From contig JASBVM010000012.1 in assembly GCA_029961055.1 (NCBI GenBank), positions 119,741-165,474 of the forward strand: 45,734 bases of DNA, written 5' to 3'. Under the pieces are notes generated by a model. The model was not told the origin of the DNA, searched no databases, and saw nothing but the letters and a program-made list of their open reading frames with translations. The translations under genes and the position numbers were made by a program. Shown here one piece after another: positions 38,909-42,691 of this stretch (its first letter is position 1; the number at the start of each line of letters is the position of its first letter). The stretch comes from Bacillota bacterium (lineage in GTDB: Bacteria > Bacillota > Sulfobacillia > JAIMAT01).

Positions 38909-39099
38909 GGGTCGGATCGGTCCGGAGACGGAGGGCGGCGCGCGCCACCGGTCGCCGCCCGCACCGCCTTCCCTCCCGCCTCATCCTTTGCGACCCGCCC
39001 CATCGGAGGAGCTGCCGGCCCAACATCGCCCGTGCGGAGGGTAGCCGGGGGCGCTGCTCCCTTCCTAGCCTGGGGGGTCGGCGGGAAGCGAGGCGGCGC

Positions 39100-39912
39100 A
39101 TGGGCATCGTCAGGAAGCGGGGATCGGGCGCGCGCTGGCTGCGCCGGCTGGGATTCCACACGGTCTTCCAGCCCGTCGTCGATCTGGAGAGCGGGGAGGT
39201 CCACGGCTACGAGGCGCTCCTCCGCGGCCCGCGGCGGAGCGCGTGGGAATCGCCCTCGCGGCTCTTCGCTGCCGCGCACGCCGTGGGCGTCGTACATCGG
39301 CTCGATGCCGGGGCGCTGGACCTGGCGCTGGCCAGCTGGCGGGAGCTGGCGCCGGCCGTGCGTTCCGGCGCCCGGCTCTTCCTCAACGTGCGGGCGGCCA
39401 CGCTTCTGGCCGTGCCGGACCTGCGCGAACGGATCGACCGCGGCCGGCGGGCAGGGGATCGCCTGGTGCTGGAGCTGAGCGAGGCGGAGAGCTCGCCGGA
39501 GGCCGTCGCCTTGCTGGGCCGTCTCTGTGCCAGCCTGCAGGGGGTCGAGGCGGCGGTCGACGACTTCGGCGCCGGCTACTCCAACCTGGCCCAGGTGATG
39601 GAGCTCCGCCCCGCCTACGTCAAGATGGACCGGAAGCTCACCCGGCTGGTGGCGGATGACGCCACCTCGGGGCCGGCCGTGAAGGGCCTCATCGACTGGG
39701 CCAGCCGGCTGCCCAGCCGGATCGTCGCCGAGGGGATCGAGCGACCGGAACAGCTCGAGCGCGTCCGCCACCTCGGGGTTCCTCTGGGGCAGGGCTGGCT
39801 CCTGGGCTGCCCATCCGAGCGCCCTGCCCCGCCACGTCGCCGGATCCGGCGGGCGGCGGCCCGCCGGAAGGCCGGCGGCAGGGCGACCCGACCCGGGGGA
39901 AGCCGGGGCTAG
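39100..39912 (+). CDS. EAL-domain c-di-GMP phosphodiesterase
   Basis: A 270-aa stand-alone EAL domain. Residues expected for catalysis are all present: E38 in YEALLRG, N96 in LFLNV, E125 in LELSE, D154-D155 in VDDFGAGYSN, K175 in YVKMD, E211 in VAEGIE and Q231 in GQGWLLG. It is therefore likely an active enzyme hydrolysing cyclic di-GMP to pGpG. No sensor, GGDEF or membrane segment is present. The C-terminal ~35 residues are a basic Arg/Ala/Gly tail of unknown role. The ATG has GAGG about seven bases upstream. Confidence 0.9.
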   Translation: MGIVRKRGSGARWLRRLGFHTVFQPVVDLESGEVHGYEALLRGPRRSAWESPSRLFAAAHAVGVVHRLDAGALDLALASWRELAPAVRSGARLFLNVRAATLLAVPDLRERIDRGRRAGDRLVLELSEAESSPEAVALLGRLCASLQGVEAAVDDFGAGYSNLAQVMELRPAYVKMDRKLTRLVADDATSGPAVKGLIDWASRLPSRIVAEGIERPEQLERVRHLGVPLGQGWLLGCPSERPAPPRRRIRRAAARRKAGGRATRPGGSRG

Positions 39913-40048
39913 CCGGTCACCGGTCCGTCTCCGGGAGCGGCACCCGAGACCAGCGCAGGCGGCTGCCCGAGAAGCGCCCGGCGGCCCGACCGGCTTGACG
40001 CCGATCACGGCTGGGAACGGCAGGGTCGCTGACACCGCTCCTTCCCCT

Positions 40049-40183
40049 GAGCGCCGGCGCAGGCTGGTTCTCCCAAAACCACCACCACGTGGGGAGAAGC
40101 GCGGGACGCCTTCCCGGCCGAGCGGCGGAGGCCCGCGCTTCCGCCTGACTTGCTGCCGGCGGAGATCCCGGCGAAGCCGCCGG
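40049..40183. repeat. Left arm of a ~135-bp inverted repeat
   Basis: This intergenic stretch is the reverse complement, at roughly 90% identity by eye with a few 1-base indels, of 40381-40517 inside the following phosphoesterase gene. It ends five bases before the GTG annotated as that gene's start. The indels break the reading frame relative to the coding arm, so it looks like a decayed inverted copy or the stump of a divergent paralogue. It fills about half of the 275-bp gap between the EAL and phosphoesterase genes. Confidence 0.85.
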
Positions 40184-40187
40184 TGGC

Positions 40188-41321
40188 GTGGTTCCGGGGC
40201 GGCCGCGGCGGGCGGGCACCGGCATCCGGCGGGGGCTCCGGCGGGGCCGGACGCGCCTCGCGCTTCTCTTCCCGCTCCTGCTGGCGGCCGGGGTGGGGCT
40301 CGCCGCCTGCGCCCACCTTCCGGGCTCGACCGGAGGAAGCCCGGCTCGCCCCCGGGGAGAACTCGCCCCCTCCGGCAGCCCGGCGGCTTCGCCGGGATCT
40401 CCGCCGGCGGCAAGTCCGGGCGGAAGCGCGGGCCTCCCGCCGCTCGGCCGGGAAGGCGTCCCGCGCTTCTCCCACGTGGTCTTGGTGGTGCTGGAGAACC
40501 GGCCTGCGCCGGCGCTCCTGGCTCCGGGTGCGGCGCCTCGACTCCAGCAGCTGATGCGGCAGGGCGCCACCGCCCTCCAAACCTACGGGGTCGCCCACCC
40601 CAGCCTCCCCAACTACCTGGCCCTGCTGGGCGGCGACACCTTCGGCATCCACAGCGACTGCTGGTTCTGCACCGTGGACGCTCCCAACCTGGTCGACCGC
40701 CTGGAGGCGGCGGGCCTCTCGTGGAAGGCGTACATGGAGGGCCTTCCCCGTCCCGGCTGGCTCGGCCCCTGGAACCCCCTCACCCGCTACGCGGGCAAAC
40801 ACAACCCGTTCCGCTACTTCCAGGACATCCGCCGCTCGCCTGCCCGCAGGAGCCGGATCGTCGGCTTTGACGCGCTCGCGCGGGACCTGCGCGCGGGACG
40901 GCTGCCCGCCTTCGCCTTCGTGGTCCCCGACCTCTGCCACGACGGCCACGACTGCCCGCTGGCCGCGTCGGACGCCTGGCTCGGCGCCTTCGTCCGGCAG
41001 CTGACCGCCTCGCGCGCCTGGGACAGCCGGAGCGTCCTCTTCGTCACCTGGGACGAGGGGGCGGGCGACGACGCCAGCGCCGCCCCCGGGCTCGCTCCGG
41101 GCGGCGGGCGGACGCTTCTGGTGGCGCTCTCCCCTCTGGCCAGGCCGGGCTACAGGTCGGGGCTGCCCTTCTCGCACCTCTCCCTGCTCCGCACGTTGGA
41201 GGATGCATGGGGGCTTCCCCCGCTGGGTCGAAGCGGCCTGCCCGGCGTCCGCCCCCTGACGCCGCTCTTCCGGCCCCGATCCGACCGGCCCACCTCGGCA
41301 GACGGTTCCCCCGGAGGCTAG
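40188..41321 (+). CDS. Lipoprotein phosphoesterase (acid phosphatase-like)
   Basis: A 377-aa exported protein of the phosphoesterase family that includes acid phosphatases and phospholipase C-like enzymes. A basic N-terminus, a hydrophobic segment (residues ~24-40) and the lipobox LAAC near 41 predict a lipoprotein. A Pro/Ser/Gly linker precedes the catalytic domain. Its motifs are VVLVVLENR near residue 98, HPSLPNYLALLGGDTFGIHS near 135, VVPDLCHDGHDC near 245 and VTWDEGAGDD near 285. The GTG start has no clear ribosome site. Residues ~65-110 are encoded by the right arm of a large inverted repeat. Confidence 0.83.
   Translation: MVPGRPRRAGTGIRRGLRRGRTRLALLFPLLLAAGVGLAACAHLPGSTGGSPARPRGELAPSGSPAASPGSPPAASPGGSAGLPPLGREGVPRFSHVVLVVLENRPAPALLAPGAAPRLQQLMRQGATALQTYGVAHPSLPNYLALLGGDTFGIHSDCWFCTVDAPNLVDRLEAAGLSWKAYMEGLPRPGWLGPWNPLTRYAGKHNPFRYFQDIRRSPARRSRIVGFDALARDLRAGRLPAFAFVVPDLCHDGHDCPLAASDAWLGAFVRQLTASRAWDSRSVLFVTWDEGAGDDASAAPGLAPGGGRTLLVALSPLARPGYRSGLPFSHLSLLRTLEDAWGLPPLGRSGLPGVRPLTPLFRPRSDRPTSADGSPGG
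40381..40517. repeat. Right arm of the ~135-bp inverted repeat (within phosphoesterase gene)
   Basis: Reverse-complement partner of 40049-40183, separated by a 197-bp spacer that holds the phosphoesterase start, signal peptide and linker codons. The arm encodes the linker end and the first conserved phosphoesterase motif. An RNA spanning both arms could fold into a long hairpin with the start codon in the loop. Confidence 0.85.
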
Positions 41322-41623
41322 CACCTGAGCGGCGAAACCTCCGCCCGGACCCCCAGGCGCACGCGGAAGGGGACAGGCCCGGCGCCCGCCCCTTCCAAGA
41401 CGCTTCCCGCTCCGTCCCCCTCTTCCACGCTCCCCTCCGGCCATCGGCCCTTGCCGCCGCTGAACTTGCCCCCCGACGCGCGAGCGCTGCGCGAAGAAAG
41501 AGACGCGCACCGGCAAGATCGTCAGGACGAGGCCGCCATCCGCAGGTTCCGCTCCGTCCGGAAGGAGCCGCCGAAGAGGAAGCCGCCCCGCGCGCCCCGG
41601 GAGGCGCCGACGGCCACCGCCCG
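41322..41623. other. 302-bp convergent intergenic region
   Basis: Lies between the ends of the phosphoesterase (plus) and diiron protein (minus) genes. Apart from one small hairpin (41365-41396) I see no gene, RNA or repeat here. Open frames crossing it lack homology and ribosome sites. Confidence 0.6.
41365..41396 (+). terminator. Possible hairpin after the phosphoesterase gene
   Basis: GGAAGGGG (41365-41372) and CCCCTTCC (41389-41396) form a perfect 8-bp stem with a 16-nt GC-rich loop, 43 bp past the phosphoesterase stop. There is no T-run, so this is only a candidate terminator. Confidence 0.3.
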
Positions 41624-42691
41624 CTACGAGCCGGCGGACAGCGCGCTGCGGACGATCCGGCTCTTGCAGAGGAGCGCCACGGCGCAGGCCCCGCAGTGGC
41701 GGAGCTTCTCCGTCACCCGGCCGGTCGCCTGGCCCAGGGGCTCGGCCAGCCGGTCGAGCGGGATGGTGAAGAGACGGCGGCGCGGCTGGTCGTCCGGCCG
41801 CTCGAAGGCGCCCTCAAGGCCCGCGGCGGCGTCCTGTCCCCGGTCGTCGTCGCCCGGGAGGGCCGTCCCCGTACCCGCCAGCGCCTCCGGACCCGGCTCC
41901 GCCGCCAGCGGCCCGCCGTCGTCGCCGTCGTCGCCGTCCTGGCCGGTGGCCGGCTTCAGCCCGATCCGGCGGGCGTGGTACTCGATGTCGGCGATCCAGC
42001 GGTCGACGATCTCGCGCCCGTCCAGCCCGAGCACGCGGGCGTCCTCCTCCAGCTTCCTCTCGATGGCGCGGATGATCTCGATCAGGTCTTCTTCCATGCG
42101 GACCAGGCCGCGGCGGCGGTCCTCGCCCAGGCGCGGCAGCGCCCGCTTCAGGTAGTGGTGGGCGAAGGCCTTGTGGCGCGACTCGTCGACCAGCACGGCG
42201 GAGGAGATGCGGCCGAAGACCGCGTCCGGCCGGGCCTCCGCGAAGAGCTTGTAGAAGAGGCTCGAGTAGAGGTCGGAGATGAGGATGCCCCAGGCCCAGT
42301 CGAAGCGGTCGCCCTGCCGGAGCCGGTGGTGGTAGCGGAGCATCTCGGGGATCTCGCGCAGCCGGGCGGGGTGCTCCCCGGCGCGCTGGTAGAAGCGGGT
42401 GAGAATCTCGAAGTGCCTGCCTTCGTCGGAGAGAAAGCTGCTCAGGTAGAGCTGGACGCTGGTCTCGTGCGCGTTGAACATCTGCGGCAGCGCCGCCGCC
42501 GCGCCCAGCATGGCCGACTGCTCGCCCAGGTAGACCGGCGTCAGGACGCGGGCGAGCGCCTGCATCTCCCGGGGGTCGAAGCCGCTCGGCGCCTCCCAGT
42601 CGAAGTCGAGGGAGGTGAGCTGCGTCTTCCTCGCCTTGTGGTAGAGGGTAAGGAAGACGTCTTCCTCCAGCTTGGGGAACAGCTCGATCAT
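41624..42691 (-). CDS. Ferritin-like diiron protein (oxygenase/R2-like)
   Basis: A 355-aa, mostly helical protein with a four-helix diiron pattern: E57 in YLGEQSA, E90-x2-H93 in SDEGRHFEIL, and E170-x2-H173 in VDESRHKAFAHHYL. A fourth helix lies between. This arrangement fits AurF-, desaturase- or R2-like oxidases, not storage ferritin. The C-terminal ~100 residues are a Gly/Asp-rich linker and a segment with HCGACAVALLC, possibly metal-binding. The start has an excellent GAAGGAGGTGGG site, and its ATG overlaps the HMG-CoA reductase stop (ATGA). Electrons could come from the FAD reductase in the same operon. Substrate unknown. Confidence 0.78.
   Translation of the reverse strand: MIELFPKLEEDVFLTLYHKARKTQLTSLDFDWEAPSGFDPREMQALARVLTPVYLGEQSAMLGAAAALPQMFNAHETSVQLYLSSFLSDEGRHFEILTRFYQRAGEHPARLREIPEMLRYHHRLRQGDRFDWAWGILISDLYSSLFYKLFAEARPDAVFGRISSAVLVDESRHKAFAHHYLKRALPRLGEDRRRGLVRMEEDLIEIIRAIERKLEEDARVLGLDGREIVDRWIADIEYHARRIGLKPATGQDGDDGDDGGPLAAEPGPEALAGTGTALPGDDDRGQDAAAGLEGAFERPDDQPRRRLFTIPLDRLAEPLGQATGRVTEKLRHCGACAVALLCKSRIVRSALSAGS

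Follow-up and report, generated by a model that had tools for sequence, protein, structure and literature searches.

The phosphoesterase gene and the inverted repeat at its start

We analyzed a stretch of DNA of 45,734 nucleotides (hereafter, the window) from G000, a single metagenome-assembled genome of 2.28 Mb in 54 contigs that is 96% complete. The locus comprises an EAL-domain gene, a downstream gene encoding a phosphoesterase lipoprotein and the interval between them, and was compared with that of two genomes of the same genus, G001 and G002. The G001 locus is located within contig JASBVS010000005.1 of isolate Bu54. The features of the window discussed here are as follows.

39100-39912, plus strand: upstream EAL-domain gene (PF00563); C-terminal tail dissimilar to both relatives from about 39826 on
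39959-40014, plus strand: right-end fragment of an IS110-family element, 86% over 56 bp
40049-40183, minus strand: left arm, an inverted copy of 40380-40517; non-coding, with 5 indel events relative to the right arm
40184-40379, plus strand: loop from arm to arm, with the GTG start at 40188, signal peptide, lipobox and first part of the linker
40188-41321, plus strand: phosphoesterase lipoprotein gene (PF04185, 377 aa)
40380-40517, plus strand: right arm, the in-frame source copy; last part of the linker, then the HVVLVVLEN motif

The phosphoesterase matched the PF04185 profile with 113.9 bits (curated cut-off, 23) and, by sequence, two proteins of solved structure, a phospholipase C (E=2.2e-6) and an acid phosphatase (E=0.0067). 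Purifying selection acts on its catalytic domain, with dN/dS values of 0.31 and 0.33 in comparison with the two relatives. The GTG codon at 40188 is the only in-frame ATG, GTG or TTG start and lies inside the loop, 4 bp past the inner end of the left arm. By eye, the gene encodes a signal peptide with an LAAC lipobox; no good Shine-Dalgarno sequence was seen before this GTG, and one is present before the ATG of the G001 gene. A terminator-like site lies at 40241-40261 within the signal-peptide region. Further, the linker from the lipobox to the catalytic domain (40320-40440) is longer than those of the relatives and contains SPAASPGSPPAASPG-type repeats.

The original prediction described two near-exact reverse-complement arms enclosing a loop of 197 bp. 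The arms bear this out, with 128 of 140 aligned columns identical, five substitutions and five indel events (1, 1, 1, 3 and 1 bases, seven in all). The left arm is 135 nt and the right arm 138 nt, and they are spaced by 196 nt; the loop measures 197 bp only if one base is left outside the arm. The loop had also been said to contain the start codon, signal peptide and linker. The start codon and signal peptide are located there, together with only part of the linker, the remainder of which is in the right arm. As proposed, the right arm encodes the first conserved motif of the protein, HVVLVVLEN, which is probably a metal-binding motif of the PF04185 phosphoesterase family. Its glutamate and asparagine (E103 and N104) are invariant in all six aligned homologues.

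The repeat gave the top self-inverted blastn score in 39000-42500 (289 bits). When 100 dinucleotide-preserving shuffles were scored alike, the maximum was 57.2 bits and the mean 33.9 bits; a palindromic hit counts both arms, for real and shuffled sequence. The shuffles thus ruled out a chance origin in this sequence of 75% G+C. Across the 45.7-kb window, the runner-up inverted repeat scored 46.4 bits. The strongest one in 399,740 further bases, a sample of about 18% of the genome, was a short palindrome of 68 bits. We also scanned 38 loci, of which three (L001-L003) represent the window's own locus and two (L004 and L022) share one contig and are not independent; none of the 35 loci other than the window's own contained an inverted repeat above 59 bits. 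A search of G000 for further copies, as suggested with the original prediction, found the arm at exactly two places, the two already known. It is therefore not a dispersed repeat, and a MITE was ruled out on the same count.

Comparison with the same-genus relatives

Both relatives possess the phosphoesterase gene. From about 40452 onward, the right arm is identical to their genes at 53 and 52 of 66 bases, respectively. Neither relative has an inverted copy upstream, so that in both genomes the source is present and the left arm is missing. An element conserved among the relatives was thus ruled out for both G001 and G002.

The left arm holds frameshifting indels and the right arm keeps an open reading frame. 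Four differences between the arms, each a single position or a missing codon, could be read against the outgroups: the left arm shows the derived state in two (a 3-nt deletion at 40480-40482, and 40490), the right arm in one (40501, where the left arm retains the A of G001 and G002), and the fourth, at 40491, is of ambiguous polarity. In the same stretch, the left arm has two one-base insertions that are missing from the right arm. The indels and the polarized differences together indicate that the left arm is a genuine copy of an earlier state of the gene, and one that has aged. Neither relative aligns clearly with the inner half of the arms, which therefore has no usable outgroup. Accordingly, the direction of copying is demonstrated for about 40452-40517 and is extrapolated to the inner half.

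Of 133 base pairs aligned between the arms, 5 are mismatched, well below the synonymous difference of 0.35 between the window and G001. Because this divergence is low and the copy is missing in G001, the duplication seems to postdate the split from that genome. In alignments of the EAL and phosphoesterase sequences, the two relatives resemble one another more than either resembles the window.

The interval between the EAL-domain and phosphoesterase genes

In both relatives, a gene encoding a 102-aa ABM monooxygenase (PF03992) lies on the other strand between the EAL-domain and phosphoesterase genes, at the following positions.

L004, 1048-1356: ABM monooxygenase gene (PF03992)
L005, 2630-2938: ABM monooxygenase gene (PF03992)

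The corresponding interval of the window, 39913-40187, is without this gene. No ABM match was found in G000 (96% complete) in a search for which both relatives served as positive controls, and the window contained no convincing ABM remnant. Beyond the genus, where 32 loci were available (L006-L021 and L023-L038), there was no ABM match in the 15 that were searched. The ABM gene may have been lost in the lineage of the window rather than never gained there. Given the greater similarity between the two relatives, a gain in their common ancestor could instead account for the distribution. Where the ancestral flanks of the arms would be sought, the relatives diverge and carry the ABM gene.

The tail of the EAL-domain protein encoded by 39826-39912 is longer than, and different from, the tails in both relatives. 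This dissimilarity suggests that the rearranged stretch may begin within the end of the EAL-domain gene.

The fragment at 39959-40014 precedes the left arm by 34 bp. It matches an IS110-family element of G001 at the 3' end of the latter, as well as the corresponding end in G002. The ORF of the G001 element matches PF01548 and PF02371, and the matched end is the one that adjoins this DEDD/Transposase_20 transposase gene. Further, the match ends close to where the IS copies diverge among themselves, and the opposite end of the G001 element carries an inverted version of the end motif. Searches of G000 with the G001 transposase and with PF02371 detected no IS110 transposase, and hence no complete element. 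Excision of IS110 elements is described as scarless (PMC11208160), so that a surviving end suggests that the fragment arose by deletion or decay, not by excision. The sequence TTGAC at 39995-39999, inside the fragment, could be part of an outward -35 element.

Origin of the inverted copy

We consider it likely that the repeat is a lineage-specific inverted duplication, produced through a template switch in replication or through break repair, and that insertion and decay of an IS110-type element also remodelled the interval. Template switching had been among the origins put forward in the original prediction, and it fits the reverse-complement copy near its source and the lack of this copy in both relatives. 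During replication or repair of the interval between the EAL-domain and phosphoesterase genes, synthesis would have jumped to the opposite strand, at a distance of about 200 bp, and copied some 138 bp from the linker and motif region of the phosphoesterase gene in reverse before returning to the original strand. The outcome would be an inverted copy directly upstream of the start codon. An IS110-type insertion would also have struck the interval and left 56 bp of its right end. The left copy would afterwards have drifted as non-coding DNA and the gene would have remained intact. We infer the template-switch mechanism, and the decay of the IS, the loss of the ABM gene and the duplication may have been linked in time. 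The left arm is probably neutral debris. There is also some chance that the altered start region has weakened expression of the phosphoesterase.

The original prediction also considered that the left arm is the stump of a divergent paralogue. On this view, a complete inverted copy of the phosphoesterase gene once lay upstream and was later deleted from both sides. The left arm read on the minus strand is indeed an internal piece of such a gene. However, it covers only codons ~65-110, the adjacent start, signal peptide and remainder of the catalytic domain are missing, and two additional deletions would be required. A paralogue of the arm was found neither elsewhere in the genome nor upstream in the relatives, and we regard this origin as very improbable. 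Long inverted repeats can recombine, and recombination between the arms would flip 40184-40379, the invertible segment that had likewise been proposed, and so toggle the gene. Such a flip would, however, turn the signal peptide around. Between the arms, 12 of 140 columns differ and homogenization is not evident, and the relatives, in which the left arm is missing, have the loop region in a single orientation. An invertible start segment is thus extremely unlikely. The structure rests on one metagenome-assembled genome of 54 contigs, which raises the question of an assembly artefact. A hairpin or chimera would nevertheless yield almost identical arms, at odds with these 12 differing columns. 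Further, the ancestral base opposite 40501 means that the left arm keeps the older allele, unlike a copy made in assembly, and an artefact is in our view highly improbable.

The remaining alternative concerns function. A transcript from upstream of 40049 would span both arms, and the resulting 135-bp stem might limit the phosphoesterase by masking or exposing the start region in the loop or by being cut by RNase III. The predicted fold of 40049-40517 (-429 kcal/mol) pairs the arms over almost their full length and the GTG start sits 4 bp off the stem, so that the translation-limiting hairpin of the original prediction is possible by complementarity. It found no support beyond this: the left arm is missing in both same-genus relatives, and the differences between the arms, indels included, break pairs; none is compensatory, which follows by construction for a recent copy. 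No sigma-70-like promoter was found in 39700-40600, and no Rfam family scored above its gathering score; one match far below it was located elsewhere. A functional mRNA hairpin is thus very improbable. It is likewise very improbable that an accidental inverted copy was captured as a cis-regulatory hairpin that sets the level of the phosphoesterase lipoprotein. In such a case, the start region of the relatives' type and the divergent ABM gene would be gone and transcription would enter from the side of the IS110 end; if true, a regulatory RNA structure would have arisen through one template-switch event.

The inverted duplication looks like an ordinary copying accident, not a switch, and the inverted copy is most likely neutral. 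The locus provides a roughly datable example of a rebuilt intergenic interval, in which a gene that the relatives possess is missing and a scrap of an IS110-type element and a reversed piece of coding sequence are present. Were the hairpin both transcribed and functional, it would demonstrate that a long regulatory stem can originate in one mutation.

Template switches during replication or break repair are reported as an established source of reverse-complement copies of nearby segments (PMC8794818). As in the cases introduced there, the copy described here is close to its source and capable of forming a hairpin. Those cases concern RNA genes and their stems; in contrast, the present one involves 135 bp from a coding region beside an IS scar. 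Quasipalindrome-associated template-switch mutations of Escherichia coli similarly tie template switching to inverted repeats (PMC7202029), but are presented as mutations at existing imperfect inverted repeats, whereas a new long inverted copy was generated here. The titles and opening abstract sentences of the template-switch papers found contain no description of this locus.

The likeness to IS110-family elements, as these are outlined in PMC11208160 and PMC11187229, consists in the match of 39959-40014 to the right end of such an element found within the genus. The window differs in retaining only a fragment, and neither of the inverted arms is itself an IS end. A further 32-bp match to the IS-end motif, with other flanks, lies in G001 (L044; G001:C18:26062-26093) and is possibly a second solo IS110 end.
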